Assembly: GCA_016871575.1 (NCBI GenBank) | Contig: VHCW01000002.1 | Coordinates: forward strand, 1 to 64,000 | Origin: Verrucomicrobiota bacterium | Lineage (GTDB): Bacteria; Verrucomicrobiota; Verrucomicrobiia; Palsa-1439 | Length of the DNA stretch: 64,000 bases | Direction of reading: 5' to 3' | Shown here: in pieces, positions 11,078 through 37,485 of the stretch | Position numbering within the stretch: position 1 is the first letter of the stretch | Layout: every line of letters starts with the position of its first letter | Translations under genes and position numbers: made by a program | The notes under the pieces: generated by a model | Database searches by the model: none | Told to the model about the DNA's origin: nothing | The model's input: the letters and a program-made list of their open reading frames with translations, nothing else

Positions 11078-14000
11078 ATGAAAGCATCCCTCGCTCTGTT
11101 TGTTCTCGCACTCAACGCACTGGCTGCCGCACAACCCAATCTTCCCACCGTTGACCTCTCCGGCGACACCAATCGCCACGTCATCATCGCGCAAGGCACC
11201 GACACAATTTATCAGGGCCATCCGACGACCCTGCTGTTGCCGGACGGCAGGACCATGTTCTGCGTCTGGTGCGTCAACCACGGCGGGCCGTGCGGCCCGA
11301 TGAAACGCAGCGACGACGGCGGCAAAACGTGGAGCGGGTTGCTGCCGGTGCCGGACAACTGGCGCGACGTGAAGAACTGCCCGGCCATTTATCGTCTGGC
11401 CGATCCGCGCGGCAAGGCGCAGCTCTTCATCTTCGCCGGCCAAGGGCCGGACGGCGCGATGCACCAGTCCGTCTCCACCGATGACGGCAAGACGTGGTCG
11501 CCAATGACAAGCAACGGCCTCGTCTGTGTGATGCCGTTCTGTACGATTGTGCCGATTGATGGCGGCAAGAAATTGCTGGGCATGACCAATATCCGCCGGC
11601 CGGGCGAGACGAAGGACAAACGTTCCAATGTCATCACCCAGAGCATCTCGGAAGACGGCGGCCTGACGTGGAGCGCGTGGCGCATCCTGCTCGATCTCGG
11701 CGACCTCAAACCGTGCGAGCCGGAACTGGTGCGCTCGCCCGATGGCAAACAGTTGCTCTGCCTGTTGCGCGAGAACAAGGAACACATCGCGCTTTACATG
11801 ACCACCAACGACGAAGGACGAACGTGGTCCAAAGCGAAACCGCTGCCTCCGGGACTGTTCGGCGACCGGCACAAGGCTCTTTATGCGAAGGATGGCCGGC
11901 TCGTGGTCTGTTTCCGTGACACCGGCAAGGACAGCCCGACGAAGAATCATTTCGTCGCGTGGGTGGGCCGGTACGAGGACATTATCGCCGGTCGGGACGG
12001 CCAGTATCGGATCAAGCTCTTGCACAGTCACAAAGGCAGCGACTGCGGTTATCCCGGCGTCGAAATGCTCCCCGACGGCACCATCGTCGCCACCACCTAC
12101 ATCAAGTATCGCCCCGGCCCGGAGAAACATTCCGTTGTCAGCACGCGATTCAAGCTGGAGGAGATTGACGAGTTGAACAGGCGTCTCGCCTGTTCGCCGG
12201 TGACAGGCGAGACGCCTGTCCAACTTGCGAGCATCCTGCTCGATGACAGCGCGGGAGAATTCACCGGCGTCTGGGCGATCAGCGACAAGCTCACGCCCTT
12301 GGTTGGCTCCGCCTACAGGACCGCTGATCGCAAGCAGAAAGCCGCCGCCATCTTCACACCGGAGATTCCCGAAACGGGCCGTTACGAAGTGAGGTTGTTG
12401 TACGTTGCCGCCACAAACCGCGCGCGCAGCACCCGAATCACAATTCGCTCCGCCGATGGCGAGAAAACTGTGACGCTCAACCAACGCGAGCCGTGTCTGG
12501 AAGACGGCATCCCGCATTCGCTGGGCGTGTTTGCGTTTGCGAAAGGAAAATCCGTCTCCATCGAAATCTCCAATGCCGGCGCAGACGGCTACGTCGTGGT
12601 GGACGGCCTGCAACTCGTCCCCGAGGAGATCGCCAAGGCCGAACGCGCGACGAAAACCGGCGGGGGATTCCCAATCAAAGTCACTGCCGCTGCTCCCGTC
12701 AAAGTGCCGCCGCCGATGTTGCTGAAGAGCGCCGCCAAACCGCAGGACGTGGACGGCAAGACGTTTGACCTCGTCGTCATCGGCGGCACGCCGGGCGGCA
12801 TCGCTTGCGCGGTGCGGGCGGCCCGCGAAGGGCTGCGCGTGCTGTTGGTCAATCACACGCAACATCTCGGCGGGTTCATCACCAGCGGCGGCGGCGGCTG
12901 GGAAGCGCCGTATGACGGCCTGCGTTCGCCGCTCTACGGCGAGATGCTGACCGGCGCGGCGGAGTATTACCGCAAAACCTACGGCGAAAATTCGCCGCAG
13001 CATCTCGCCTCGATGCCCAGCGCAACGAGCCGGGCGCACATTGATCGCGCGAAGATCGAGCCGCGCATCGCCGAGATGTTGTTCAATCAAATGGTGGAGC
13101 GCGAAAAAACGCTGACAGTGTTGCTCGGTCATATCGTCGCCGGCGCAGAGCGCGACGGCGCTGTGCTGAAACGCGTGACGCTGCGAAAATGTGGGGCAGG
13201 TTTGCAACCTGCCATGCCGTTGATAAAAGATGGGCAGGTTGCAAACCTGCCCCACACTGTCCGCGTGAGCGCGAAAATTTTCGCCGACGGCATGTACGAA
13301 GGCGATCTCATGGCCGCCGCCGGAGTGAAAACGCAGATTGGCCGCGAATCGCGGGAACAATACGGCGAGCCGCACGCGGGCGTCATCTATGTAAAGGAAC
13401 GCCGCAAAGCGCCGGGCCAGCGCGGGTTTCCGAAGGACGCCGATGAAGGCCGTCTCAACATCCGCTACAACAGCCACGCCACCGCCGAAATCATTGAAGG
13501 GCCGAACAGCAACGAAGCCGACGGTTCCGTGATGGCCTACAACTACCGGCTCATCCTCACCCGCGAGTCGTCGAATAAGATCATGGTCTCGAAACCCGCC
13601 AACTACGATCCCGCCATCGCCAAGTCAGCCGTGGGCGGCGGTTTCGTGCCGAACCTGCCCAACAACAAAGTCGCATGGAACGGCGGCCGCCTCATCGGCC
13701 CGCAAAACGATTATCCCGGCGGCGACTGGGCGACACGCGAGCGTATTTCGCGTCAATATCTCGATGCGATGTTGATGCGCTTGTGGTGGCTGCAAAACGA
13801 TCCCACGGCGCCGGAGGCGGAGCGCAGGAGGTTTGCCGGCTACGGACTCGCCGCGGACGAATTCCCCGACAACAATCATGTGCCTTACGAGATTTACGTC
13901 CGCGAAGCCCGCCGATTGGTTGGGCGATACGTGTTCAAGGAGCAGGACAACATGATTGCCGAAGGCATTGCGCGGACGCCGATTCACCCCGACAGCGTTG

Positions 14001-14605
14001 CCATCACTGATTGGCCGGTGGATTCGGTTGCGTGCCTCCGACGGAGCGTGCCCGGCTCGAATCTCGACGGCATCTTCTTTCTTGCTGAAGAAGGCCGTCC
14101 GGCGCAGGTCCCGTATCGGAGTCTGTTGCCGAAGGAACTGGACAACCTGCTTGTGCCGGTCGCGCTCTCGGCGTCGCACGTCGGCTGGGGCGCGATTCGC
14201 CTCGAACCGGTCTGGATGCAAACCGGCGAGGCGGCCGGGTTTGCCGCCGCGCTGGCCGTGAACCAAAACACCACACCGGCGGCGCTCGATTCTGACCTGT
14301 TGATAAAGACACTGGCGAAGAACCGTGTGATGGTGAGTTTCTTCAACGACAAGGAGCCGATGGATCCCGCCCTCCAGTATTTCGGCACAAAAGGTTTCTT
14401 CCCTGACTACGACGCGAAACTGGATGCGCCGGTGACGGAGGCCGTGAAGACTGTTTGGCAGGACGGTTTTGCGAAGTTGAAAGACGGCAAGCTCGATCCC
14501 AATGCGCTCGCTCGCGCCGTTGCACAAGCAGAACGTAGCCGATCCGAAAGTGGAAGCCTCACTCGCGGCGCTGTGTTACAATCCATGTGGGAGTTACTCA
14601 AATGA
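11078..14605 (+). CDS. Three-part fusion: sialidase propeller, golvesin/xanthan-lyase-like sandwich, FAD-dependent oxidoreductase
   Basis: This is a 1175-residue secreted protein (MKASLALFVLALNALAAAQ signal; GGGAGA ribosome site). Residues ~20-365 form an Asp-box propeller ([33 protein letters not shown]) closely similar to the N-terminal half of the 26968-29220 protein. Residues ~367-381 are encoded by an in-frame palindromic repeat. Residues ~385-515 match the beta-sandwich that precedes the FAD domain in 35158-37485 (IFTPEIPETGRYEVRLLY, VVVDGLQLVPEE). From ~555 to the end is an FAD_oxidored domain (DLVVIGGTPGGIACAVRAAR). A second, longer palindromic repeat is read in frame at about residues 705-727. 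The fusion ties a sialidase-type domain to a redox domain in one chain. The next gene overlaps by ATGA. Confidence 0.88.
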   Translation: MKASLALFVLALNALAAAQPNLPTVDLSGDTNRHVIIAQGTDTIYQGHPTTLLLPDGRTMFCVWCVNHGGPCGPMKRSDDGGKTWSGLLPVPDNWRDVKNCPAIYRLADPRGKAQLFIFAGQGPDGAMHQSVSTDDGKTWSPMTSNGLVCVMPFCTIVPIDGGKKLLGMTNIRRPGETKDKRSNVITQSISEDGGLTWSAWRILLDLGDLKPCEPELVRSPDGKQLLCLLRENKEHIALYMTTNDEGRTWSKAKPLPPGLFGDRHKALYAKDGRLVVCFRDTGKDSPTKNHFVAWVGRYEDIIAGRDGQYRIKLLHSHKGSDCGYPGVEMLPDGTIVATTYIKYRPGPEKHSVVSTRFKLEEIDELNRRLACSPVTGETPVQLASILLDDSAGEFTGVWAISDKLTPLVGSAYRTADRKQKAAAIFTPEIPETGRYEVRLLYVAATNRARSTRITIRSADGEKTVTLNQREPCLEDGIPHSLGVFAFAKGKSVSIEISNAGADGYVVVDGLQLVPEEIAKAERATKTGGGFPIKVTAAAPVKVPPPMLLKSAAKPQDVDGKTFDLVVIGGTPGGIACAVRAAREGLRVLLVNHTQHLGGFITSGGGGWEAPYDGLRSPLYGEMLTGAAEYYRKTYGENSPQHLASMPSATSRAHIDRAKIEPRIAEMLFNQMVEREKTLTVLLGHIVAGAERDGAVLKRVTLRKCGAGLQPAMPLIKDGQVANLPHTVRVSAKIFADGMYEGDLMAAAGVKTQIGRESREQYGEPHAGVIYVKERRKAPGQRGFPKDADEGRLNIRYNSHATAEIIEGPNSNEADGSVMAYNYRLILTRESSNKIMVSKPANYDPAIAKSAVGGGFVPNLPNNKVAWNGGRLIGPQNDYPGGDWATRERISRQYLDAMLMRLWWLQNDPTAPEAERRRFAGYGLAADEFPDNNHVPYEIYVREARRLVGRYVFKEQDNMIAEGIARTPIHPDSVAITDWPVDSVACLRRSVPGSNLDGIFFLAEEGRPAQVPYRSLLPKELDNLLVPVALSASHVGWGAIRLEPVWMQTGEAAGFAAALAVNQNTTPAALDSDLLIKTLAKNRVMVSFFNDKEPMDPALQYFGTKGFFPDYDAKLDAPVTEAVKTVWQDGFAKLKDGKLDPNALARAVAQAERSRSESGSLTRGAVLQSMWELLK
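12177..12219. repeat. Palindromic repeat read in frame (17-base arms)
   Basis: The arms ACAGGCGTCTCGCCTGT (12177-12193) and its exact reverse complement (12203-12219) are separated by 9 bases. The element lies inside the fusion gene between the sialidase propeller and the beta-sandwich and encodes an interdomain linker (NRRLACSPVTGETPVQL) without breaking the frame. It appears to be a dispersed genomic repeat that has settled in a tolerant linker. Confidence 0.85.
13190..13256. repeat. In-frame 24-base-arm palindromic repeat, copy A
   Basis: The left arm 13190-13213 begins TGTGGGGCAGG and the right arm 13233-13256 is its exact reverse complement; a 19-base spacer separates them. Read in the host frame it encodes CGAGLQPA...GQVANLPHT within the FAD oxidoreductase domain of the fusion gene. 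Copies B and C lie at the equivalent place in two paralogues. Confidence 0.95.
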
Positions 14606-16368
14606 AATCTGTCCTCGCTTGGTTCGCAATGTTGTGTGTTGCTGATGCCGCAACGAGCGGCGTGTTTCACCGTGATCCGTTGGTTGTGCCTGACTCGAAA
14701 AAGCACACGGTGTCACTGTCGGACTATCCGCTGCACAATCCAAACCCGCGCGGCTGGTATTACAAGTGCGCCAACGTCGTGCTGGCGCGCGACGGCGCCC
14801 TCGTCGCCAGTTGGCAGCTTTCGGATCAGCACACTTCGACGACAAGCTGGATCATGGTCGCGCGCTCGGCCGACGGCGGACGCACGTGGACGAATCACCG
14901 GACGATCGCCCATGCCAATGTCAACGACCACGGCGCCATCTGGGTCGTGCCCCAGATGAGCGTGCTGCGCGATGGCCGCATCGTCATCGTCTGCGACCGT
15001 GGGCAGCGCAATCCCGGCCAAAGCTTTCCGATGCTCTCCGACTGGCAGAAGCCAGACCGCGGGATGTCCAATTGGGTGTTCTGGAGCGCGGACCATGGGC
15101 AGACATGGACGCGCGGCGAGAAGATCGACGAGGTCGGCGGCGAGCCGGGCTACGTGTTCGAACTGGCCGACGGCACGCTAGCCTTCACGCGCACCTCGTC
15201 GAAGCAGACCGACCAGTTGCGCAACCCGCCCAAGCCGTGGAACGACATCTACTATCGCAATGAGATCGTGTTTTCCGACGACGGCGGAAAGACCTGGGGG
15301 CGAAGCGCGTGGCTGGCCGACAGCCCGTTTCACGGGGACTGCGAGGTAGGGCTGGCGGAACTCGCACCGGGCAAACTGATGGCCGCAACGCGCATCGGGT
15401 TAGGCAACGGCCGCTTCGGCCATCCGAGCCGGCTGATGTACTCGGACGACAACGGTCGCACGTGGCCGCGTGCGCATCCGGCGCCGTTCTACGGCCAACG
15501 CGTGCACCTCGGCAAACTGCAGTCGGGAAAGCTGCTGGCCACCTACCGCAATCTCTGGGGCACGCCCGGCAGCCGTGCGCTGGTGTTCGATCCGGCGGAG
15601 CCGCTCGGTTTCCAGCCGGCCTCCCACATCACCGACGAGTCGCGCTGCGAGCTGACAGCGGAAGCGCTGACGCTGCGGACCGGCGATGGCGCCCGCGGCG
15701 CGGTCGAGTTCAACCTATACCCGGCACAGGACGATCTGGCGCGCGTCGAGTTCGAGGCGACGCTGAAGGTTGACGAGGCGGAGCCGAACGGCGTGGCGAT
15801 CAGCGCAGGGTGCTGGGTGCGGTTCGAGCCTGCGCGCATCTCGCTGGCCGCACGGCCGGCGGCGGGCTTTGCCTTCGACACGCGCGGCTGGCACACCTAC
15901 CGCGTGGTGCGGGAGCGGGGGGAGATCGCAATCTTCGCCGACGGTATGGAGAGGCTGCGGGAGAAAATCGAAGGGATCTGGGTGCGCGAAGTGCGCTTCG
16001 GCAACCGCCGGGAGCCGCGGCCCGGCGAATCGCACCCGAAGAATCGTGCGGTGAGCCACTGGCGGGCGTTGCGGGTCAAGGTGGCCAACGATCCACGCGA
16101 CTACTCGATTGACTGGCGCTGGACCCCGAAGGACGGCTACCCGGACCAGTTCCGCCGCGATCGCACGGTGATCCTCGACCATGCATTTCCGCCGGCCGAC
16201 TGCGGCTACAGTTCGTGGACGCAGCTTCCCGACGGTCGCATTGTGATTCTCGACTACACCAACCTCCAGCGACCGGGCCAAGCCGCCGAGGGCGAGCATC
16301 CGCGCAACCTCATCCGGGCCTACTTGGTCACGGAGGCTGACCTCGTTCGGAGACCGGCCGGCAAGTAG
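14602..16368 (+). CDS. Secreted Asp-box (sialidase-like) protein with LamG-like region
   Basis: The 588-residue product has a Sec signal (MKSVLAWFAMLCVADAA). The ATG overlaps the previous stop (ATGA). Asp boxes include [24 protein letters not shown] and SDDNGRTW. It aligns along its whole length with 913-2841: compare GAIWVVPQMSVLRDGRIVIV with GMWIAPQLSRLKDGRLVII, and the shared KDGYPDQFRRDR and YSSWTQLPDGRIVI/YSGWTQMPDGTIVI ends. The C-terminal half again contains a LamG-like sandwich. No YRIP motif is evident, so the activity could differ from sialidase. It differs from its paralogue in using a Sec rather than a Tat signal. Confidence 0.85.
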   Translation: MKSVLAWFAMLCVADAATSGVFHRDPLVVPDSKKHTVSLSDYPLHNPNPRGWYYKCANVVLARDGALVASWQLSDQHTSTTSWIMVARSADGGRTWTNHRTIAHANVNDHGAIWVVPQMSVLRDGRIVIVCDRGQRNPGQSFPMLSDWQKPDRGMSNWVFWSADHGQTWTRGEKIDEVGGEPGYVFELADGTLAFTRTSSKQTDQLRNPPKPWNDIYYRNEIVFSDDGGKTWGRSAWLADSPFHGDCEVGLAELAPGKLMAATRIGLGNGRFGHPSRLMYSDDNGRTWPRAHPAPFYGQRVHLGKLQSGKLLATYRNLWGTPGSRALVFDPAEPLGFQPASHITDESRCELTAEALTLRTGDGARGAVEFNLYPAQDDLARVEFEATLKVDEAEPNGVAISAGCWVRFEPARISLAARPAAGFAFDTRGWHTYRVVRERGEIAIFADGMERLREKIEGIWVREVRFGNRREPRPGESHPKNRAVSHWRALRVKVANDPRDYSIDWRWTPKDGYPDQFRRDRTVILDHAFPPADCGYSSWTQLPDGRIVILDYTNLQRPGQAAEGEHPRNLIRAYLVTEADLVRRPAGK

Positions 16369-16418
16369 CAATAAGCCAAGCAATGTTGCGGGACCGACAA
16401 ACGAAAGGAATAAATGAA

Positions 16419-17573
16419 ATGAAATGCCACACGATGATACACGCCCTCACGCTCTTCGCCACTCTGCTTCCGGCGGTTGGTGGCGCCGAAAAGCCATCTC
16501 TTGAAAGGAGCGGCACCACAGTCAACCAGTCCACGCCCGACTGGGCCGGGCGCGCGACGGACGGCAAAGCCGCTCGCATTGCCGTGCCGGCACCGGAGGA
16601 TCCGCGCTATCATCACCTCGGCTGGCCAAAGGCCGTGCGCACGGCAGACGGCACAATCGTTTTGGGTTTTCTCATGGGACGGAAACATGTCGGCGAGAAT
16701 TGCCCGGCAGTCTCCTTGTCCACCGACGGCGGCCAGACGTTCTCCGCGCCGAAGCGTCTCAAGGAATTCGGCAAAGACAAAGATTACGGCGCAAGCGGCA
16801 ACATGGCGCTCGGCATCGCGCACGATGGCTCGGTGCTGTTGCTCTCGCATGGTTACTCGCCGAACGCCTGCCACATCTTCGGCTGGCGATCCACTGACAA
16901 CGGACGCACGTGGAAACCGGTGGACACCTCCGCGCTCGGCCCGAACAAAGCTGGTTCTTCCACCGGTCACATTGTGCAGTTGCCCGGCAAACGGCTCATG
17001 GCAGTCGGTCATTACCGCGACGGTTGCCAGCCACATACGCGCGGCATCTGGCGTTCGATTTCCGAGGACGATGGCCTGACGTGGGGCGAGCCGTCATTAG
17101 TCACCACGCAGCACGGTGTGGAGCCGGTGTTGGTGCGCCATGAAAACCGCCTGCTGGTGTTCATACGGAACAACAGCGGCGAAGGCGCGCCCCGTCAACT
17201 GATCGCCGTTTCGGATGACTGGGGCAAGACGTGGCGAACGGAGTTGTCCAATATCGGCGCTGTCCTGCCCGGCACTCGCGCGCTCGCGCATCCTTTCGCC
17301 ATGATGCATCCGCACCGGCCCGGTGAACTGCTGGCGGTCACCTTCGAGCGCGGCCCGATGGGCGCGGGGCAACTCTGGCGCGGCGACCCGGCGACGTTGA
17401 AATTCACGCATGAACGCACCTTGGTCGAGTTGTCCAAACAGAGCGTCAAAACCCACAACGATTACGGTTACGGCTGGTTGGTGCCGATGGAAGGACGACG
17501 CGCCTTGCTCTTCTACTATCACGGTCGCAAGGACGGCCCCGCCTCCATCTGGGTCTTGGAGACCGAGATTTGA
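16419..17573 (+). CDS. Secreted Asp-box (sialidase-family) protein
   Basis: The 384-residue product has a Sec signal (MIHALTLFATLLPAVGGA after MKCHT). The chosen ATG is nine bases after AAAGGA; an upstream in-frame ATG at 16383 adds a charged stretch and is less likely. Asp boxes are STDGGQTF, STDNGRTW, SEDDGLTW and SDDWGKTW. It lacks a clear RIP motif (WPKAVRTADGTIVLGF in its place) and so belongs to the wider sialidase-like superfamily with an undefined substrate. An FAD oxidoreductase starts seven bases after its stop, repeating the pairing seen at 4169/5349 and fused at 11078. Confidence 0.83.
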   Translation: MKCHTMIHALTLFATLLPAVGGAEKPSLERSGTTVNQSTPDWAGRATDGKAARIAVPAPEDPRYHHLGWPKAVRTADGTIVLGFLMGRKHVGENCPAVSLSTDGGQTFSAPKRLKEFGKDKDYGASGNMALGIAHDGSVLLLSHGYSPNACHIFGWRSTDNGRTWKPVDTSALGPNKAGSSTGHIVQLPGKRLMAVGHYRDGCQPHTRGIWRSISEDDGLTWGEPSLVTTQHGVEPVLVRHENRLLVFIRNNSGEGAPRQLIAVSDDWGKTWRTELSNIGAVLPGTRALAHPFAMMHPHRPGELLAVTFERGPMGAGQLWRGDPATLKFTHERTLVELSKQSVKTHNDYGYGWLVPMEGRRALLFYYHGRKDGPASIWVLETEI

Positions 17574-17580
17574 AAACGCC

Positions 17581-19494
17581 ATGAAACATCACGTTGCTTC
17601 TTTCATCGCACTGTTTCTCATCGCGTCGTCTCACCTGCGCGCCGCTGAAACTACTCTGCACCGTGCCGATCTCGTCGTCATCGGCGGCACGCCGGGCGGG
17701 ATCGCTTGCGCGGTGCGGGCGGCGCGGGAGGGGCTGTCCGTGGTGCTGGTGAACTGGCACGCCCATCTCGGTGGCATCATGTCCAGCGGACTGGGTGTGT
17801 GGGACACGCAGTGGGAAGGCGGGCGCGCGCCGATCTACAACGAGATGCGCGCGGCGTTCTTCGCGTTCTACCGCGCAAAGTATGGCGAAGACTCACCGCA
17901 GTATCGCGACGCGCTGCCGGGCGCGTTCGGCCACACCAATGGACGCTACGAACCGCGCGTGGCGGAAAAGATTTTCAACAATCTCGTGGCGCGCGAAAAG
18001 AAGATCACGGTGCTGAAAGGGTTTATCCCCGTGGCAGTGGAACGCGAGGGCGCGTTGGTGAAATCGGTGACGGTGCGCGAATGTGGGGCAGGTTTGCAAC
18101 CTGCCGCTCCGGACGGGCAGGTTGCAAACCTGCCCCACACTATTCGCGTGTTGCGCGGCAAGGTTTTTGCCGACTGCACCTACGAGGGTGACCTCGCCGC
18201 GCTGGCCAAGGTGCCCTATCATGTCGCGCGCGAGTCGCGCGATGAATTCGGCGAACCGCACGCCGGCATCGTGTTCATGAAGCCTGTTTCAAAGCCGCCG
18301 GATGCCGAAGCGGCGCAGTTGGCGGCGTTGCACGAAAAATTGAACCTCCGTAAGTTCCCCGGCTGGCAAATCCGGCTGCCGGAAAGCACCGGCGCGGCGG
18401 ATGACGCTGTGCAGGCGTGCAATTACCGCACCATGCTGACCACCAATCCCGCCAACCGCGTGCCCGTTTCGCAGCCCGCCAACTACGATCCGTATTTTCT
18501 CAAGACATTGGAAGTGTTCTCTGGCGTCAAATCCATCCCGAACGACAAGTTCGGCTGGAACCGCCCGCAACTGGTCGGACGCCAGACCGCGTACGTCGAG
18601 GCCGACTGGACCGAGCGACAGCGCATCATGGACGAACATTGGGAGACGACGCTGGGTCTTCTCTACTTTCTCCAGCACGATCCCACCGTGCCGGAGAAAG
18701 TGCGCGCCGCGTGGCTGGAGTATGGTTTGGCGAAGGATGAGTTCACCGACAACGGGCATCGCCCTTACGAAATCTACGTCCGCGAAGCGCGCCGCATCAG
18801 GGGCCGCGCCATTTACACACAGCACGACGCGATGCTGGCGCATGGTTTGGGACGCGCCCCGGTTCACACGGACAGCATCGCGGTGACAGAGTGGTATATG
18901 GACAGTCATTCCTGCACGCTGGCGCGCGTGCCCGGCTCGATGGAAGAAGGCAAAGCGATGCTGCACCAAGAGACTTTCCCCGGCCAGATTCCCTATCGTT
19001 GCCTGTTGCCACAGGGCGTGGACAACCTGCTCGTGCCCGTCTGTCTTTCCGCCACGCACGTCGCGTGGGGCACGGTGCGGCTGGAGCCGGTTTTCATGCA
19101 AACCGGCGAAAGCGCCGCGTTCGCCGCCGCGCTGGCCCTGAAACACAAGACCACACCCGCGGCGCTCGACCCCGACTTGCTCGTGCGCTCACTTTGCAAG
19201 GCCGGTTCCATGGTGTCGTTCTTCAACGACAAGGACGCGTTGACGCCCGCGCTCCAGTATTTCGGCACCAAAGGTTTCTTCACCGACTACGACGCGCGCC
19301 TGAACGAACCGCTCTCGGAAGATGTGCGCGCGATCTGGCAGCGGGGTTTCGCACAACTCAAACAAGGCGCGCTCCATCCCATCAAACTCGCCCTCGCCGT
19401 TCACGCAGCGGAAGCGAAGAATTCGTCCCACACCAGCCAACGACGCGGCGATTACCTCCTTCAACTCTGGAAGGAACTGAACAATCAACCATGA
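17581..19494 (+). CDS. Secreted FAD-dependent oxidoreductase (Sec-type paralogue)
   Basis: The 637-residue product has a Sec signal (MKHHVASFIALFLIASSHLRAA) immediately followed by the FAD motif LVVIGGTPGGIACAVRAAR (~30-48). Further family marks are HLGGIMSSGLGVWD, FADCTYEGDLAALAKV and the C-terminal LEPVFMQTGESAAFAAALAL. It lacks the N-terminal beta-sandwich of its two paralogues (the C-terminal part of 11078-14605, and 35158-37485). The palindromic repeat copy B is read in frame at ~168-187. The frame is open about 170 bases further upstream inside the previous gene, but only the ATG at 17581 gives a signal peptide. The next gene overlaps by ATGA. Confidence 0.88.
   Translation: MKHHVASFIALFLIASSHLRAAETTLHRADLVVIGGTPGGIACAVRAAREGLSVVLVNWHAHLGGIMSSGLGVWDTQWEGGRAPIYNEMRAAFFAFYRAKYGEDSPQYRDALPGAFGHTNGRYEPRVAEKIFNNLVAREKKITVLKGFIPVAVEREGALVKSVTVRECGAGLQPAAPDGQVANLPHTIRVLRGKVFADCTYEGDLAALAKVPYHVARESRDEFGEPHAGIVFMKPVSKPPDAEAAQLAALHEKLNLRKFPGWQIRLPESTGAADDAVQACNYRTMLTTNPANRVPVSQPANYDPYFLKTLEVFSGVKSIPNDKFGWNRPQLVGRQTAYVEADWTERQRIMDEHWETTLGLLYFLQHDPTVPEKVRAAWLEYGLAKDEFTDNGHRPYEIYVREARRIRGRAIYTQHDAMLAHGLGRAPVHTDSIAVTEWYMDSHSCTLARVPGSMEEGKAMLHQETFPGQIPYRCLLPQGVDNLLVPVCLSATHVAWGTVRLEPVFMQTGESAAFAAALALKHKTTPAALDPDLLVRSLCKAGSMVSFFNDKDALTPALQYFGTKGFFTDYDARLNEPLSEDVRAIWQRGFAQLKQGALHPIKLALAVHAAEAKNSSHTSQRRGDYLLQLWKELNNQP
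18082..18139. repeat. In-frame 24-base-arm palindromic repeat, copy B
   Basis: The arms 18082-18105 and 18116-18139 are exact reverse complements and identical to those of copy A; the spacer is 10 bases (GCTCCGGACG). It is read in frame as CGAGLQPAAPDGQVANLPHT inside the FAD oxidoreductase gene. Confidence 0.95.
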
Positions 19495-21206: not shown

Positions 21207-21352
21207 GACGCCCGCTCACCATGTTTGCCATCCCACTGTTCGCGTCGCTGGCCAGCGGCGGGCACTGCACCTGGCATTTTCGGAGCAAGACCTCGCTGAG
21301 TTTCCTGACCGTCAATCGTTCGAAACCAACCCATGAAAAGGAACCCACTAAC
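21207..21352 (+). other. Alternative N-terminal extension of the next gene
   Basis: An ATG at 21203 overlaps the upstream stop (ATGA) and stays in frame with 21353-24007. It would add 50 residues starting MRRPLTMFAIPLFASLASG, itself signal-peptide-like. The ATG at 21353 has its own signal peptide and an AAAAGGA ribosome site, so this stretch is more likely a leader or the remnant of another gene start than coding sequence. Confidence 0.4.
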
Positions 21353-24007: not shown

Positions 24008-24032
24008 TCAGGCTGCCTGCCCCAACAATACT

Positions 24033-25511: not shown

Positions 25512-25531
25512 CACAACAGGAATCGCCAACC

Positions 25532-26950: not shown

Positions 26951-26967
26951 AGTAACGAAAGGCCATC

Positions 26968-29220: not shown

Positions 29221-30725
29221 AACACTCTTTCATCCTGCTCATCGTCCTGCTGTCTGCGCTCGTCGTGCCGAGCGAAGCGGCCAGCGCACCGCGCCCGAAC
29301 GTTCTGTTCATCGCCGTGGACGATATGAACGATTGGGTCGGGTGTCTCGGCGGATATGCGGGAAAGGTTCACACGCCTCACATTGACCGTTTGGCCGCGC
29401 GGGGCACGCTCTTTACGAACGCGCATTGTCCGTCGCCGAAATGCGCCCCCTCCCGCGCAGCGGTCCTCACCGGCCAAATGCCCTCGACCACCGGCCTTTA
29501 CGACAACGGCCACTGGTGGTATCCCCATCTGCCGGGGATTTCGACGCTTCCGATGCATTTCCGCGCGCACGGCTACCGCGCGCTCGGTGCGGGGAAAATC
29601 CACCACCACACGGCCGGCTTCAATCCGCCCCATCAATGGGATGCCTTCGAACCGCTGCTGTTCCGCGACGACCCGTGGTTCCGCGGTGACAAAAAAAACT
29701 ATCCGTGGTCGAAGAGCGGCCCGACGCCGGAGGGGTTCCCGTTCAGCGGAGTGCAGAACCTCGGACATGAGAACGACTGGGGAACGCTGCCGCTCCCGGA
29801 TCGTGATCTCGATGACGTCCACAGCGTCAACGCCGCGATCGAGCATCTGCGGCGGAAACATGACCGTCCGTTCTTTCTTGCCTGCGGCACTTTCCGCCCG
29901 CACCTGCCTTGGTACGTGCCGAGGAGGTTTTTCGACCTGTACGATCCCGGCAAAATCGTCCTGCCCGATGTTCCGGATGATGACCTCGATGATCTCCCCG
30001 CCCCGGCGCTGAAGTTTGCCGCCGAGCGCAGGAAGGATTTTGAGCTGATCCGGACGGCGGGAAAATGGCGCGAGGCCGTTCGGGCCTACTTGGCCTCGAT
30101 CAGTTTCGCCGATGCCCAGGTCGGCCGGCTGCTTGATGCGCTGGATGCGAGTCCCTACGCCGCGAACACCATTGTCGTCTTCTGGTCGGACCACGGCTGG
30201 CATCTTGGCGAGAAACAGCACTGGCACAAGATGACGCTTTGGGAACGCGCCACGCGGGTTCCATTCATCATCGCCGCGCCGGGCCATGCGCCCTCGCGCT
30301 GCGAAAGAGCGGTGAACCTTGTTGATCTGTATCCCACGCTGATTGAACTCTGCGGTCTGCCCAACGCATCGCATCCGGTGGACGGCCAGAGTCTCGTCCC
30401 GCTCCTGCGCGACCCGAACGCCCCGCGCGACCGTCCGAGCGTCACCGAGTTTCTGCCCGGTAACGCCGCCGTGTGCGACGAACGATACCGCTACATCCGT
30501 TATCATGACGGCAGCGAGGAACTCTACGATCATCACGTGGATCCCCACGAGTGGCGGAATCTCGCCGGCGACCCCGGCGCAGCCGGCGTCAAAGCCCGGT
30601 TGGCGCGGCGGCTGCCCAAGGCATGGGCACAGCCCGCACCGGTCAAGAACGCCTACCAGTTCGATCCGGATTCCCACACATGGACGGAAAAGGCGACCGG
30701 TCGGATTATCCGGCCGGGACCATGA
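29217..30725 (+). CDS. Secreted sulfatase (S1 family, iduronate-2-sulfatase-like)
   Basis: The 502-residue product starts at a GTG that overlaps the previous stop (GTGA) and encodes a Sec signal ending PSEAAS. The metal-binding start [12 protein letters not shown] is followed by the sulfatase signature [11 protein letters not shown], with formylglycine precursor Cys at residue 76. [22 protein letters not shown] supplies the second metal/active-site cluster. It would remove sulfate esters from glycans after activation by a formylglycine-generating enzyme that is not encoded in this window. It is the first of four consecutive sulfatase genes. Confidence 0.93.
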
Positions 30726-30742
30726 ACAGGAGACCATCCACC

Positions 30743-32179
30743 ATGAAAACCCTTCGCCTGCTCATTTTTTTCCTCGGCGTCTGCCTTGTGCGCCATGCCG
30801 CAACGGCCGCGCCGCCGAACATCATTCTATTTCTCATTGACGACCTTGGCTGGCGCGATCTCGGATGCCAGGGCAGCAGCTATTACCAGACGCCGCACAT
30901 GGACCGGCTGGCGCGCGAGGGCGTCCGTTTCACGGACGCCTACGCGGCGTGCGCCGTCTGTTCGCCGACGCGCGCGGCGGTGTTGACCGGAAAATACCCG
31001 GCGCGGCTGCTGTTGACCGACTGGTTGCCGTCGGGTCGCTGGAATCCGAAGGCGAAGTTGCGCGAGGGCCGGTTCGTTCGCGCCCTGCCGGTGGAGGAGT
31101 TCACGCTTGCGGAGGCTTTGCGCGAGGCAGGCTATCGCACGGCGAACATCGGCAAGTGGCATCTCGGCGGCGAACCGTTCTCGCTGCCGGAACATCACGG
31201 CTTCGATGTGAACATTGCCGGCAACGCCCACGGCGCGCCGGGCAGCTATTTCTTTCCCTATCAAGGCGACTGGCTGATTCCGACGACCGGTCTGCGGGCG
31301 CGATGGAACGTCTTCGCTGATGGCAAGCCCGGCGAGTATCTCACCGACCGGCTGACCGACGAGGCCGTGACGTTCATCCGCGCCAACCGCGACCGCCCGT
31401 TCTTCCTCTACTTCCCCCACTACGGCGTGCACACGCCGTTGCAGGCCAAGCCGGAGTTGATTGCCAAGTATGAAAAAACGCCGGAGGCCGAGCGCCAGGG
31501 CAAACCGGAATACGCCGCGATGATCGAGAGCGTGGACGACAGTGTGGGCCGTGTCATGGCGACGCTGAAGGAACTCGGATTGGAACAGAACACCGTGGTG
31601 ATGTTCACCAGCGACAACGGCGGATTCTACAACGCCACCAGCCACGCGCCGCTGCGGGCGAACAAGGGCGCGTATTACGAGGGCGGCATCCGCGTGCCGC
31701 TGCTCATCAAATGGCCCGGCGTCGCCAAGGCGGGCCGTGTCGTCAGCGAGCCAGTCACCAGCACCGACCTTTATCCGACTTGCCTTGCCGCCGCCGGATT
31801 GCCCTTGCGGCCGAACCAGCATCTCGACGGCGTGAATTTGCAGCCGATCCTTTCCGGCGCAGGACCGCTCGCGGCGCGTTCGCTTTTTTGGCATTACCCG
31901 CACTACAACGATCATCCCTCCAGCGTCCCCAGCAGCGTCATCCGCCAAGGTCCTTGGAAACTCATCGAGACCTTTGACCCCGCCGGCATCGAACTGTATA
32001 ACCTCGCCAACGACCTTGGCGAAACCAAGAACCTCGCTGCCGCCGAGCCTGGGCGCGTGAAGGAACTGCGTGCCAAACTCGACGCGTGGCGGAAGGAGGT
32101 CGGCGCGGAAATGATGAAACCCAATCCCGACTACGATCCGGACGCGCAGCCGAAACCCAGAAAGAAAACCAGACGCTAG
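30743..32179 (+). CDS. Secreted sulfatase (S1 family, arylsulfatase-like)
   Basis: The 478-residue product has a Sec signal (MKTLRLLIFFLGVCLVRHAATA). The start has AGGAG at good spacing, although the frame is open upstream into the previous gene. NIILFLIDDLGWRDLGC binds the metal; CSPTRAAVLTG is the signature, with Cys 73 as formylglycine precursor; GKWHLGG and FTSDNGG are further active-site strands. The overall pattern (QTPHMDRLAREGVRFTDAY) is that of S1_16-like arylsulfatases. The C-terminus is lysine/arginine-rich (PRKKTRR). Confidence 0.93.
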   Translation: MKTLRLLIFFLGVCLVRHAATAAPPNIILFLIDDLGWRDLGCQGSSYYQTPHMDRLAREGVRFTDAYAACAVCSPTRAAVLTGKYPARLLLTDWLPSGRWNPKAKLREGRFVRALPVEEFTLAEALREAGYRTANIGKWHLGGEPFSLPEHHGFDVNIAGNAHGAPGSYFFPYQGDWLIPTTGLRARWNVFADGKPGEYLTDRLTDEAVTFIRANRDRPFFLYFPHYGVHTPLQAKPELIAKYEKTPEAERQGKPEYAAMIESVDDSVGRVMATLKELGLEQNTVVMFTSDNGGFYNATSHAPLRANKGAYYEGGIRVPLLIKWPGVAKAGRVVSEPVTSTDLYPTCLAAAGLPLRPNQHLDGVNLQPILSGAGPLAARSLFWHYPHYNDHPSSVPSSVIRQGPWKLIETFDPAGIELYNLANDLGETKNLAAAEPGRVKELRAKLDAWRKEVGAEMMKPNPDYDPDAQPKPRKKTRR

Positions 32180-32180
32180 A

Positions 32181-33632
32181 ATGAACACCACTCTTGCCAT
32201 TCTCCTGACGGCAACAATCGCCGCGCCACTCGCCCCGGCGTCCCCGGCGCCGCGCCCAAACGTTCTCTTCATCGCCGTGGACGATCTGCGCCCGGCGCTC
32301 GGCTGCTTTGGGGATAAGGTCGCCCTCTCGCCGAACATTGACCGGCTGGCGGCGCGCGGCGTCGTTTTCAACCGGGCCTACTGCCAGCAGGCGGTGTGCA
32401 GTCCGTCGCGGCTGTCCCTGCTGACCGGCCGCCGGCCCGATACGATCCGCGTGTGGGACCTGAACACCCACTTCCGCGAGACACTGCCGGATGCCGTGAC
32501 GCTGCCCCAGTATTTCAAGAACCACGGATACCACACACGCTCAATCGGGAAGATTTTCCATGGAAGCGGCAAACCCGCGAAGGATCCGCCGTCGTGGTCT
32601 GTCGAACCGCTCTACGATATCGAGCGCGACGCCTCCGGCCGTTATGCGCTGCCAGAGAACCTCAAGGGCAAGGGACACAAGCGGGCCGCCACCGAAGCCG
32701 CCGACGTGCCGGACAACGCCTACATTGATGGCAAGGTCTGTGATGCGGCGGTGCAGGCGCTGGACGAACTCAAGCCAAGCGGCGCGCCCTTTTTTCTTGC
32801 CGTCGGCTTCCGAAAACCGCATCTGCCGTTTTGCGCGCCCACGAAGTATTGGGACCTTTACGACCGCGCTGCCATTCCGTCGCCGGTCACGACCGCGCCT
32901 CCCGAGGGCGCGCCGGAATTGGCGGTGCGAAGCTGGAGGGAATTGGAGGGGTACACGGACATTCCGGACGACGGGAAATTGCCGGCGGAGAAAGTCCGCG
33001 AGCTGAGGCACGGCTATTATGCGTGTGTCAGTTACATTGATGCGCAAATCGGCCGGTTGTTGGACAAACTCGACCGGCACGGGCTGGCGAACAACACGGT
33101 GATCGTATTCTGGGGCGACCATGGATTCCACCTCGGCGAGCAAGGCTTGTGGACCAAGGCGAACAATTACGAACTCTCCACCCGCGCGCCGCTCATTCTT
33201 GCCGTGCCCGGTCAGGGCCGCCCCGGCGCGAAAACCGATGCCCTGGTCGAGTTCATAGATGTGTACCCCACGTTGGTTGAAATCTGCGGCTTGCCCCTGC
33301 CATGCGGCTTGGAGGGAACCAGCCTGCTCCCTTGGATTCTCGATCCGACCCGCACGGGCAAACCGGCGGCGTTCAGCCAGTATCCCCGGATGCGCCAGGG
33401 ACACCGGCACCGGGGTCCCGGTGAGATCATGGGGTATGCCGTCCGAACCGACCGGCACCGCTACGTGGAATGGATTGACTGGTCCAATCGGGATGTCCTT
33501 GCCCGCGAGTTATACGATCTCTCCGCCGACCCGCACGAGACGCGAAACGTCGCCGGTCAACCCGGTCGCGCGCAGACAATCAAGGAGATGTCGCTTCTGC
33601 TCAACCAAGTTCGAAAGGGAAACCAGCCATGA
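32181..33632 (+). CDS. Secreted iduronate-2-sulfatase-like sulfatase
   Basis: The 483-residue product has a Sec signal and starts one base after the previous stop. The signature CSPSRLSLLTGRRPDT (Cys 73) and the following VWDLNTHFR, LPQYFKNHGYHTRSIGKIFH match the human iduronate-2-sulfatase plan closely (an RRPDT, then a yFk-nGY-GK-FH block). FWGDHGFHLGEQGLWTKANNYE is the C-terminal metal cluster. It would act on 2-O-sulfated uronic-acid or similar residues; specificity is inferred from similarity only. It overlaps the next sulfatase gene by ATGA. Confidence 0.93.
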   Translation: MNTTLAILLTATIAAPLAPASPAPRPNVLFIAVDDLRPALGCFGDKVALSPNIDRLAARGVVFNRAYCQQAVCSPSRLSLLTGRRPDTIRVWDLNTHFRETLPDAVTLPQYFKNHGYHTRSIGKIFHGSGKPAKDPPSWSVEPLYDIERDASGRYALPENLKGKGHKRAATEAADVPDNAYIDGKVCDAAVQALDELKPSGAPFFLAVGFRKPHLPFCAPTKYWDLYDRAAIPSPVTTAPPEGAPELAVRSWRELEGYTDIPDDGKLPAEKVRELRHGYYACVSYIDAQIGRLLDKLDRHGLANNTVIVFWGDHGFHLGEQGLWTKANNYELSTRAPLILAVPGQGRPGAKTDALVEFIDVYPTLVEICGLPLPCGLEGTSLLPWILDPTRTGKPAAFSQYPRMRQGHRHRGPGEIMGYAVRTDRHRYVEWIDWSNRDVLARELYDLSADPHETRNVAGQPGRAQTIKEMSLLLNQVRKGNQP

Positions 33633-35161
33633 AGATATTTTGTATCCTGGCGGCATCCGCCGCCCTTCTTGCGCCGCGCGCCGATGGCGCGCCGCGTCCG
33701 AACATTCTCCTCATCGTGTCCGAGGACAACGGCCCCGAACTCGGCTGTTACGGCGATCCGTTCGCCCGCACGCCGAACCTCGACCGCCTCGCCGCCGAGG
33801 GCGTCCGATTCGAGCGCGCCTACGTGGCTCAAGCCGGGTGCAGCCAGTCGCGCGCCAGCTATCTCACGGGTCTCTACCCGCATCAACACGGACAGATCGG
33901 CCTTGCGACGTGGGGCTTCCGGTTGTACCGCGAGGACACGCCCAACATCGTCCGCAGCCTGAAAGAGGCCGGCTACCGCACGGGGATCATCGGCAAATTG
34001 CACGTCAATCCCGCCACCGCCTTCCCGTTCGACTTCGCGGAGATCCCCAACGCCAACTTTGCGCGGAAGAACCTCGGCGATTACGCGAAACATGCCAAGG
34101 CTTTCATCGCGGCCGGCGACGCGCCGTTCTTGCTCAGCGTGAACTACCCCGACGCCCACGCCCCTTGGCTGCGGCAGGCGGACGGACTCCCGAAGTCGCC
34201 GCAGACCGGCGCCGACGTCAAGGTCATGCCCTACATGGGCATTGATCCGCCGGCGATGCGCGAGATGATCGCCGACCACTACAACTGCATGAGCCGCCTC
34301 GACTCGCTCATCGGCGATCTGCTCGCTCTGCTCGACCGCACCGGCAAGGCGAACAACACGCTCGTCATCTACCTTGGCGACCACGGCGCTGACATGTTGC
34401 GCGGCAAGCGCACCTGCTACGAAGGCGGCGTGCGCGTCCCGCTCATCATCCGCTGGCCCGGCCAAGCCAGGCCGCAGGTTCGCAGGGAACTCGTTTCCAC
34501 CATTGACCTCATGCCCACGTTGCTCGCTGCCGCCGGCGTCGCCCCCGTGCCCGGCTTGCCCGGACTGCCGCTGCAACCGTTGCTCGCCGGCGAACCCGTG
34601 AAATGGCGCACGCACCTGTTCACCGAGTATCACACACACGGGTCCCTGAACTATTTCCCGCAACGCACCGCGCGGAACGACCGCTACAAACTCATCGAGA
34701 ACCTGTTGCCCGGCTCGGTGAACCCTGATTACCACCTGACGCTCGGCAAGTTGCAGGCCGAAGTGCGACAGCACGGCCCCAAGGGCGCCCTCGACCTCGC
34801 CGCCACCATCGCCAACGCCGCGCCGGACGTGCGCACGGCTTACGCGACCATGCGACAGCCGCCAAGATATGAACTCTACGACCTGAAGACGGACCCTCAC
34901 GAGTTCCGCAATCTGGCCGGCGCGACGGAACACGCCGCCCGTCTTGCCGAACTGGCGCGCGCGCTCGATGACTGGCGACGGGAAACCCGCGACCCGCTTT
35001 TGAACCCCGCCATTCTTGAGCGTCTCACTGCCGAGGTGACCGCAGTGACAAGCAAGACCTCCGGGAAACAACTTGTCTGGAGCTATCCCGATTACTTTTT
35101 CGGGCGCGAGCCGGTCAAAACCGACAGTCCATCCAAAGGAAAGAGAAAGAAGAACCGATGA
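33629..35161 (+). CDS. Secreted sulfatase (heparan N-sulfatase-like) with CSQSR signature
   Basis: The 510-residue product has a Sec signal (MKIFCILAASAALLAPRADGA). The metal site NILLIVSEDNGPELGCYG and the context YVAQAGCSQSRASYLTGLYPHQHGQIG resemble sulfamidase-like (S1_8) sulfatases. The third signature position is Gln instead of the usual Pro/Ala (CSQSR, Cys 71), so processing by the formylglycine enzyme may differ. The C-terminus is basic (KGKRKKNR). ATGA overlaps join it both to the previous sulfatase and to the following FAD oxidoreductase gene. Confidence 0.9.
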   Translation: MKIFCILAASAALLAPRADGAPRPNILLIVSEDNGPELGCYGDPFARTPNLDRLAAEGVRFERAYVAQAGCSQSRASYLTGLYPHQHGQIGLATWGFRLYREDTPNIVRSLKEAGYRTGIIGKLHVNPATAFPFDFAEIPNANFARKNLGDYAKHAKAFIAAGDAPFLLSVNYPDAHAPWLRQADGLPKSPQTGADVKVMPYMGIDPPAMREMIADHYNCMSRLDSLIGDLLALLDRTGKANNTLVIYLGDHGADMLRGKRTCYEGGVRVPLIIRWPGQARPQVRRELVSTIDLMPTLLAAAGVAPVPGLPGLPLQPLLAGEPVKWRTHLFTEYHTHGSLNYFPQRTARNDRYKLIENLLPGSVNPDYHLTLGKLQAEVRQHGPKGALDLAATIANAAPDVRTAYATMRQPPRYELYDLKTDPHEFRNLAGATEHAARLAELARALDDWRRETRDPLLNPAILERLTAEVTAVTSKTSGKQLVWSYPDYFFGREPVKTDSPSKGKRKKNR

Positions 35162-37485
35162 TCCGTCCCATTTTTGCCAGCCTCGCCATCCTGGCCTGTT
35201 CCGGCCAAGTCCTCGCAACACCGCGTTCGAATGTTCATTTGATCCTCGTGGACGACGAGCAAGCGGTGTTCACCGGCGAATGGACGCTCAGCGCCAAACA
35301 ACGCGCGTTAATTGGCAAAGGCTACCGGCACGACGGCAACACGGGCCGCGGCGAGAAGTCCGCCGTCTTCACGCCGGACATTCCGGAAGCGGGCCGTTAT
35401 GAAGTTCGGGTGCTCTACACTTCCGGAGCGAGCCGTTCATCGCGCGTGCCGGTGACCGTCCGCAGCGCCGATGGCGAGAAGACCGTCATCATCAACCAGC
35501 GCAAGGAACCGCAGCCGCTGGGCGTGTTCCAGTTCGACGCCGGCACAAACGGTTCCGTGACTGTTTCCAACAAGGACGCGGACAGCTTCGTTGTTGTGGA
35601 CGCGGTGGAATTGAAAACAAGGAGCGGCGGTTTGAAACCGCCGCCCCGTGAACCGGTTCAGCTTGCCAAGGACGCCAAACCGTCCGACGTGGACGGCAAG
35701 TCCTTCGACCTCGTTGTGATCGGCGCGACGCCCGGCGGGATTGCGTGCGCGGTGCGCGCGGCGCGGGAAGGTCTGTCCGTGTTGCTCGTGCAACACAACC
35801 GTCACATCGGCGGGATGCTCGCCAACGGCCTGATGCAATGGGACGCGCTCTACGGCGGCCCGCGCGCGCCCATCTTCAATCAATACGCCAAGATGATTGA
35901 AGAACATTACCGCAAGACCTATGGCGAGAAATCATCGCAGTATCGGCAGGCGCGTTACACGCAGGAACATTATCCGATGAGCCGCTTCGAACCGTCGGTG
36001 GCCGAACGCGAGTTCAACCGTCTGGTTGCCGCCGAGAAAAACATCACGCTGTTGCTCGGTCATTACCCGTCGGCAGTTGAGCGCGACGGCGCGATGTTGC
36101 GAAGCGTCGCGCTGCGCGAATGTGGGGCAGGTTTGCAACCTGCCACTCCATACGGGCAGGTTGCAAACCTGCCCCACACTATCCGTGTGCGTGCCACGAT
36201 GTTCGCCGATGGAACTTACGAGGGCGATCTGGCCGCGCTGGCCAAAGTGCCGTATCGCGTGGGACGTGAAGGGCGCGACGAATACGGCGAGCCGCACGCG
36301 GGCAAAATCTTCACCAACATCAAGTCCGCTCGCGGACCGCGCGATGCCGTCGAAGGCCGGTTGAACCTGCATCCCTACGGTCACGTGCAGGGCAGCATTG
36401 ATCCGAACAGCCCGCACACCGCCGATCGCGCGATTCAAGCATACAACTACCGCTTTTGCCTGACCGACGAGGATGGCAACCGTCGCCTGCCGGAGAAACC
36501 ACCGGGTTACAAACGCGAGGAATACGTCAACTATTACCGCCTCGGCATGAGTGCCGGCGCCCTCAACGGCAAAAGCTCGTTCAACAGCGCGATTCTGCCC
36601 GGCGAAAATTACGATTACCCGGAAGCCGACTGGCCGACGCGGGAGAAGATCATCGAGCGACACAAGAATTTCGCGCTCGGCTTGATGTATTTCCTCCAGA
36701 ATGATGAATCAGTCCGTGCCGGCTCACGCGCCCGGTTCCGTCAAATCGGCTTGCCGCTCGACGAATACACCGACAACAACAACATCCCCTACGAAATGTA
36801 TGTTCGCGAAGCCCGCCGCATCGTGGGCCGCCACGTGTTCACCGAGCACGATAATCGTCTCGCCAAGGACTACGCGCGCACGCCGATCATGCCCGACAGC
36901 GTTGCCATCACCGATTGGTCAATGGATTCCCACGATTGCTCCTGGGATCGCAGTTCCGGCTACGCTTTCGATGGCAAACTCATCCTCACCGAGGAATCGC
37001 GTCCCGCCCAAGTGCCGTGGCGCAGTCTGCTCCCGCAGAACGTGAACAACCTCATCGTGCCAGTCTGCCTCAGCGCCACGCACGTCGCGTGGGGCGCAGT
37101 GCGATTGGAGCCGGTCTTCATGCAAACCGGCGAAGCCGCCGGTTTTGCTGCCGCGCTGTCGAAGAAACACGGCGTCACACCCGCCGCGCTCAACTCTGAC
37201 CTTTTGGTGCGCACGCTCTGCAAGGCCGGTTGCGTGGTGTCGTTTTTCAACGAGAAGGAAGCGCTGCAACCGGCGGCGCAATACTTCGGCACCAAAGGTT
37301 TCTTCCACGACTACAACGCCCGCTTGAACGAGCCGTTGAAAACAGCGACAGCCAAGCTCTGGGCCGACGCCAAACTCGACCCGAACACGCGCGCCCGCGC
37401 CGTCGCAGAGGCTGAAAAGAGCGCCGAGACCGGAACACTTGCTCGCGGCGCTGTGTTGCAGAAGATGTGGGAGTTGCTCCAATAG
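35158..37485 (+). CDS. Secreted golvesin/xanthan-lyase-like sandwich plus FAD-dependent oxidoreductase
   Basis: The 775-residue product has a Sec signal (cleavage near QVLA). Residues ~30-155 form the beta-sandwich also present in the 11078 fusion (FTPDIPEAGRYEVRVLY, VVVDAVELK). From ~183 comes the FAD_oxidored domain (DLVVIGATPGGIACAVRAAR, HIGGMLANGLMQWD, FADGTYEGDLAALAKV). Palindromic copy C is read in frame at ~322-341 and a shorter palindrome at ~156-163. Proteins with this sandwich are often labelled xanthan lyase, but no lyase domain is visible here. It ends the long run of plus-strand genes and faces the restriction-modification genes tail to tail. Confidence 0.87.
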   Translation: MIRPIFASLAILACSGQVLATPRSNVHLILVDDEQAVFTGEWTLSAKQRALIGKGYRHDGNTGRGEKSAVFTPDIPEAGRYEVRVLYTSGASRSSRVPVTVRSADGEKTVIINQRKEPQPLGVFQFDAGTNGSVTVSNKDADSFVVVDAVELKTRSGGLKPPPREPVQLAKDAKPSDVDGKSFDLVVIGATPGGIACAVRAAREGLSVLLVQHNRHIGGMLANGLMQWDALYGGPRAPIFNQYAKMIEEHYRKTYGEKSSQYRQARYTQEHYPMSRFEPSVAEREFNRLVAAEKNITLLLGHYPSAVERDGAMLRSVALRECGAGLQPATPYGQVANLPHTIRVRATMFADGTYEGDLAALAKVPYRVGREGRDEYGEPHAGKIFTNIKSARGPRDAVEGRLNLHPYGHVQGSIDPNSPHTADRAIQAYNYRFCLTDEDGNRRLPEKPPGYKREEYVNYYRLGMSAGALNGKSSFNSAILPGENYDYPEADWPTREKIIERHKNFALGLMYFLQNDESVRAGSRARFRQIGLPLDEYTDNNNIPYEMYVREARRIVGRHVFTEHDNRLAKDYARTPIMPDSVAITDWSMDSHDCSWDRSSGYAFDGKLILTEESRPAQVPWRSLLPQNVNNLIVPVCLSATHVAWGAVRLEPVFMQTGEAAGFAAALSKKHGVTPAALNSDLLVRTLCKAGCVVSFFNEKEALQPAAQYFGTKGFFHDYNARLNEPLKTATAKLWADAKLDPNTRARAVAEAEKSAETGTLARGAVLQKMWELLQ
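35624..35644. repeat. Short in-frame palindrome
   Basis: GCGGCGGTTT (35624-35633) and its reverse complement (35635-35644) are separated by one base. It lies in the linker between the beta-sandwich and the FAD domain and is read as SGGLKPPPR, without breaking the frame. Confidence 0.75.
36121..36178. repeat. In-frame 24-base-arm palindromic repeat, copy C
   Basis: The arms 36121-36144 and 36155-36178 are identical to those of copies A and B, with a 10-base spacer (ACTCCATACG). It is read in frame as CGAGLQPATPYGQVANLPHT in the FAD oxidoreductase gene, at the position homologous to copies A and B. Confidence 0.95.

Follow-up and report, generated by a model that had tools for sequence, protein, structure and literature searches.

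Probable repeated entry of REP doublets at one beta-hairpin turn of FAD oxidoreductases in Verrucomicrobiota

The closest described systems are the REPs of the GTAG superfamily, which carry a GT[AG]G tag, a stem of 6-13 bp and a short loop, form head-to-head dimers and are dispersed in their genomes (Di Nocera et al. 2013, PMC3733652). Most GTAG-20 elements of Opitutus terrae, a member of the Verrucomicrobia, bear the variant GTGG (PMC3733652). The same study reported in 2013 that in-frame REPs encode 20-30 residues in O. terrae, Xanthomonas, Thauera and others, that different REPs are found at about one site in recB of X. campestris and X. oryzae, and that two uvrA paralogues of O. terrae were both hit, at differing sites (PMC3733652). 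The Rickettsia elements RPE-4 and RPE-6 were assigned to the CGTC-type REPs (PMC3733652). In REPINs, two REPs in inverted order form a doublet whose arms are conserved and whose spacer varies; the doublet folds into a long hairpin, and REPINs have been described as extragenic (Bertels and Rainey 2011, PMC3116915).

Here, we describe REP doublets that are read in frame in three FAD oxidoreductase genes of a verrucomicrobial genome (G000). They resemble the GTAG superfamily in the tag, the stem, the loop, the head-to-head arrangement and the dispersal. They differ in that one and the same turn is occupied in all three paralogues of a single genome, that four unrelated REP families have taken this turn in different genera, and that an empty orthologue is available for each paralogue. 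The doublet form and the presence of Y1 transposases in the genome are shared with the REPIN/RAYT system (PMC3116915; TnpA-REP, PMC8266576), whereas several copies lie inside genes and none of the nine Y1_Tnp genes was found to have the GGCAGGTT REP within about 1.5 kb. The Rickettsia palindromic elements work alike, being palindromic repeats that are read in frame in functional genes and add a peptide loop. However, RPE-1 is longer, and the element described here is a GTGG-tagged REP doublet from another phylum; tag type and phylum are different.

The original prediction regarded a peptide-donating palindrome outside Rickettsia as novel. This did not hold, as in-frame REPs had already been reported in 2013 in O. 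terrae and several Proteobacteria (PMC3733652), the only relevant publication that we found on in-frame REPs in Verrucomicrobia. The kind of element is thus known. As far as could be found, what is new is the colonization of one turn in several paralogues and by four unrelated REP families, together with the empty orthologues.

In-frame palindromes and their family in the host genome

The window, i.e. the whole stretch of DNA that was analysed, comprises 64,000 nucleotides. It contains three palindromes with the arm TGTGGGGCAGGTTTGCAACCTGCC and its reverse complement, which are identical at 24/24 positions, at 13190-13256, 18082-18139 and 36121-36178, with spacers of 19, 10 and 10 nt, respectively; on re-check of the sequence these values agreed exactly with those predicted. 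A search of the window with the arm yielded 6 matches, compared with 0.00 expected in shuffled sequences. Translation and Pfam analysis placed all three palindromes in frame inside PF12831 FAD_oxidored genes, designated P1, P2 and P3 (Table 1). The true start of P1 is probably the ATG of MKASLALF..., and that of P2 is probably MKHHVASFIALF... The three copies have one orientation, one phase and the same CCACACT end, and all lie within 23 kb.

Table 1. Coordinates of the host genes and of the REP doublets in the window
Feature	Position	Strand	Description and basis
P1	10997..14605	+	BNR/sialidase-like + Golvesin_C + FAD_oxidored fusion, carries the first element; listed ORF, translation and Pfam
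P2	17410..19494	+	FAD_oxidored gene, carries the second element; translation and Pfam
P3	35158..37485	+	Golvesin_C + FAD_oxidored gene, carries the third element; translation and Pfam
REP doublet (REPIN-like) in P1	13188..13258	+	AATGTGG-GGCAGGTT-tgc-AACCTGCC-spacer 19-GGCAGGTT-gca-AACCTGCC-CCACACT, read as CGAGLQPAMPLIKDGQVANLPHT; hairpin z -9.1
REP doublet in P2	18080..18141	+	spacer 10, read as CGAGLQPAAPDGQVANLPHT; arm search and hairpin
REP doublet in P3	36119..36180	+	spacer 10, read as CGAGLQPATPYGQVANLPHT; arm search, hairpin and AlphaFold2

The unit is AATGTGG-GGCAGGTT-tgc-AACCTGCC, followed by the spacer and the reverse complement. Each arm by itself is a tagged hairpin with a GTGG tag, an 8-bp stem and a 3-nt loop, and the two are arranged head-to-head. 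In single-stranded DNA folding, each palindrome formed a perfect 24-bp hairpin of about -33 kcal/mol (z -9 to -11). Between the paralogues the arms are identical at 48/48 positions, whereas the upstream DNA is identical at only 39-40/60 nt and 59-60/90 nt (about 65%), which bears out the claim that arm identity far exceeds flank identity. Other details of the prediction had to be adjusted. The arms were described correctly, but on either side about 2 nt more belong to the element (AATGTGG...CCACACT). The peptide CGAGLQPA-x-GQVANLPHT was also correct, but its middle part has 3-6 residues (APD, TPY, MPLIKD) instead of 2-6, and the insert does not directly precede the FAD motif, but ends 7-8 residues upstream of FADxxYEGDL.

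Two further inverted repeats were observed in the window. P1 also contains, at 12171-12225, a palindrome doublet of unrelated sequence (ACAGGCGTCTCGCCTGT...ACAGGCGAGACGCCTGT), likewise read in frame (LNRRLACSPVTGETPVQL), at the junction of the sialidase-like part and Golvesin_C (hairpin z -7.8); it was not seen in the other loci analysed. A long imperfect inverted repeat with 38-nt arms of 79% complementarity at 61390-61467 is probably intergenic.

Pattern searches of the host genome (5.19 Mb in 257 contigs, an assembly that is 95% complete) revealed 30 doublets on many contigs, most of them in no long credible ORF, as well as additional, more degenerate arms. The palindrome is therefore a dispersed repeat, as had been proposed. 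The doublet was not found in any of 285 other genomes of the class. The arms of the copies are constant and the spacers are variable, and the paired stem variants AGC..GCT and GGC..GCC represent compensatory changes. The copies that were read thus have an unpaired GTGG tag next to the GGCAGGTT-tgc-AACCTGCC hairpin; the family shows compensatory stem variation and occupies many dispersed, mostly intergenic locations, and the REPs pair up in inverted order around a spacer that varies, forming a single long hairpin. Judged by these sequence features, the palindromes classify as REPIN-like REP doublets of the GTAG/GTGG-tagged superfamily.

Spacer length differed with location: the common 15-nt spacer is intergenic, whereas spacers of 10, 10, 14 and 19 nt are found in genes (Fisher p 5e-5, with the in-gene or intergenic assignment being our own judgement from ORFs and Pfam). 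This difference points to selection for frame. The intergenic copies with 15-nt spacers belong to the asymmetric GGC/AGC subtype. Among the 30 doublets, a spacer of 10 nt is found only in P2 and P3, with 7/10 spacer bases identical, and therefore copying between P2 and P3 is possible. The spacer of P1, ATGCCGTTGATAAAAGATG, is unlike those of P2 and P3 and resembles that of a dispersed copy (L030; reverse complement ATGCCGTTGATTGAAAGTG).

Several other copies were inspected individually. One (L004, 1501-1552, contig C31) is in frame in the gene of a right-handed beta-helix protein and immediately precedes a TVRV strand (NLPHTVRVEI); its first arm is read in a different frame. Another (L031, 1501-1552) lies inside a GH95-family gene upstream of the catalytic domain, and a third (L005, 1501-1552) lies at the 3' end of a gene for an epimerase and supplies C-terminal residues. 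Two copies with an identical spacer (L103, 1500-1552 and 2301-2353, contig C35) are separated by 800 bp and probably arose by local duplication.

Several of the nine Y1_Tnp genes in the genome have other GTAG/GTGG-tagged hairpins, of 8-9 bp, in their flanks. Four RAYT-like genes (L095, L096, L097 and L098) have hairpins of their own, i.e. GTAG-GCCGACAC, GTAG-TGGCCGCCG, GTAG-GCCGCGTG and GTGG-GACAACCG, which indicates that several REP systems coexist in this genome. In the 95% complete assembly, the GGCAGGTT REP was not found within about 1.5 kb of any of the nine genes. We infer that the doublet is mobilized by a RAYT/TnpA-REP transposase.

The insertion site and its empty orthologues

An AlphaFold2 model of P3 had a mean pLDDT of 93.8, and within the modelled region values below 50 were confined to residues 150-164, which correspond to the insert. 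The insert lies between the strands 139-147 and 167-177 of the model. The insertion site is thus modelled as a beta-hairpin turn ahead of the strand that leads into FADxxYEGDL, and the insert itself is predicted to be disordered, consistent with the surface loop that the original prediction had proposed to look for on a structure model. A fold search of the PDB retrieved only distant flavoproteins with TM scores below 0.5.

The closest relatives of P1, P2 and P3 belong to other families of the same class, and the wider homologue set comprised 77 loci, mostly from Verrucomicrobiota and Planctomycetota. In 114 homologous genes and 14 further genes, every orthologue outside the host genome lacked the CGAGLQPA...LPHT insert. 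The site comprises about 20-23 residues in the host genome; in the orthologues a short turn (YGGTKE, FRGEE, RHGGGP) is followed by the same strand. Empty orthologues were identified for P1 (L116, L160) and P3 (L068-L072), and P2 has an empty sister gene (L117:1389).

These comparisons bear on two readings that assume an old insert. The first is that the insert belongs to the protein itself, as a conserved motif whose codons have diverged in the ordinary way, and the peptide is indeed common to the three paralogues. However, CGAGLQPA...LPHT is not carried by all homologues across phyla, as this reading requires, but is absent from the orthologues outside the host genome; moreover, the arms are identical at every synonymous site and the same DNA is dispersed intergenically. 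We therefore reject a conserved motif as extremely improbable.

A maximum-likelihood tree was built after removal of the insert. P1 and P2 fell among empty genes, in two distinct clades with good support, and P3 was placed in a third clade. Together, the empty orthologues and the tree indicate that the insert is younger than the paralogues and that it was gained separately by P1, P2 and P3. The second reading, one of two options offered in the original prediction, is that the insertion preceded the duplication of the three genes and that the arms have been homogenized since. It would explain why position and arms are identical in the three paralogues, but several precise losses would be needed, because each paralogue lineage has empty orthologues in other genera, and the element was not seen in the 285 other genomes of the class. 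With separate gains in the tree and an identity that stops at the element, this order of events is rejected as very unlikely. The other option, repeated site-preferring insertion, fitted the data better.

Unrelated REPs at the same turn

The turn is occupied by other REPs in other Verrucomicrobiota. Brevifollis gellanilyticus (L119) has GTAG-AACGGGTT-ttc-AACCCGTT doublets in two paralogues, and a third gene with such a doublet comes from an Akkermansia-labelled MAG (L188). In Geminisphaera colitermitum TAV2 (L159) the turn contains a doublet of the type GTGG-CGCGGGCG-tcc-CGCCCGC, and in a Verrucomicrobiaceae MAG (L170) it contains only one REP, GTAG-TCATCACTC-tcc-GAGTGATGA. The Geminisphaera REP has 423 matches in its own genome (up to 3 mismatches), and the REP of L170 is dispersed and shows compensatory stem changes. 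The Brevifollis REP has few dispersed copies, single or variant, with compensatory changes, and the exact doublet is confined to the FAD genes; its two copies lie in the same 12-kb locus and share the REP order and a spacer length of 10. In all four REP families, the tag begins at codon position 2, and therefore the hairpin centre is in the same phase (LQ, FQ, VP, SP).

A full-length scan of the 114 homologous genes yielded eight strong inverted repeats, 7/8 of which lie in the turn, compared with one in codon-shuffled controls. Every GT[AG]G-tagged hairpin in these genes was located in the turn and none elsewhere; the fourteen additional genes contained no further REP. Two Prosthecobacter-type genes (L169, L173) have a longer degenerate sequence at the same turn, with a GTAG motif in L173 (PHSSHLAPR...), which is possibly an eroded REP insertion.

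In the tree, from which L170 was left out, seven label changes were needed for the seven insert-bearing genes. One of the Brevifollis genes (Brevifollis-b) and L188 may represent one gain and one loss, because both have the same doublet with the same spacer. Including L170, we count about seven gains, and six or seven as a minimum, spread over several Verrucomicrobiota. The presence of unrelated REP families at one turn argues that this turn is a recurrent landing site. In five insertions, the three in the host genome and the two in Brevifollis, the gene has also lost the residues of the ancestral turn, as if they had been replaced; in Geminisphaera the element was seemingly added beside a retained turn.

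We regard it as probable that REP doublets entered the three diverged FAD oxidoreductase genes separately at one turn, were selected for frame, and that the turn is a recurrent landing site. A short non-autonomous REP doublet would have spread recently in this genome, presumably mobilized on single-stranded DNA by a RAYT/TnpA-REP transposase. Separate insertions into the three already diverged genes would have hit the FAD domain at the same beta-hairpin turn and displaced an ordinary turn of 5-7 residues, and selection would have retained only frame-preserving lengths, so that a loop of about 20 disordered residues resulted. The loss of the turn in five insertions is not accounted for by simple insertion, and the common spacer length of 10 in P2 and P3, as well as the REP order and spacer of 10 in Brevifollis, would also fit copying between paralogues.

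Such copying would require a single insertion in one paralogue, after which gene conversion or template switching carried the element to the other paralogues of that genome. The uniform orientation, phase and CCACACT end of the three closely spaced copies, the single 12-kb locus of the two Brevifollis genes, and the turn loss in all five host and Brevifollis copies are in line with it. However, the flanks near the element are not clearly more alike than the more distant DNA (9-10/12 identical for the adjoining 12 nt, versus about 65% over 60-90 nt), the flanks of P2 remain P2-like up to the element edge, and the flanking DNA did not clearly show a conversion tract reaching past the element. 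The flank identity thus does not support conventional gene conversion, although a tract limited to the element is conceivable. In addition, the 19-nt spacer of P1 matches a dispersed copy and not P2 or P3, and copying does not explain the four unrelated REP families at the turn in different genera. In our view, copying is rather unlikely.

Tolerance, targeting and implications

Separate insertion at one turn could result from targeting or from survival. In the latter case REPs would insert everywhere and survivors would be found only at the least harmful turn, an explanation that competes with the targeting step only. The modelled disorder of the hairpin loop, the filtering of in-gene copies for frame, and the in-gene copy L004, which likewise ends just before a VRV-type strand, are in accordance with pure tolerance. 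However, among background indels in the empty genes only 3/135 lie in the turn, whereas 132/135 lie elsewhere, mostly in other loops; this count is indicative, because related sequences enter it as if they were independent and it varies with the alignment. A generally indel-tolerant loop was therefore rejected as an explanation, and the other length-variable loops, which take up these ordinary indels, contain no tagged REP. Tolerance alone is thus not the full answer. Moreover, with the target-gene number and window size that we assumed, the chance that 3/30 doublets lie in such turns is 6e-7 for the whole genome and 6e-4 if one tenth of it is available, so that the observed number is far above random expectation. 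We give pure tolerance a substantial chance, somewhat short of even.

Two possible bases of targeting were considered. Recognition of the target as a single-stranded hairpin was rejected, as a 54-nt folding profile across the homologues had no distinct minimum at the turn. A shared target-site motif was not found. Tentatively, the turn may be a true preferred REP target, at which unrelated REP/RAYT systems of several Verrucomicrobiota would recognize something in the DNA, or in the way it is replicated or transcribed, and would repeatedly put a frame-compatible REP in place of the turn. Overall, we infer that the recurrence reflects a real insertion preference plus tolerance.

These results bear on the question of how REPs choose their insertion sites. 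A loop with empty orthologues for each gene offers natural before/after pairs for the analysis of insertion boundaries, the loss of target bases, and the selection for frame. The loop also illustrates clearly how selfish palindromes can repeatedly supply coding sequence to one structural position. If the turn is indeed a preferred target, REPs would time and again donate peptides to a single, defined loop of the protein.
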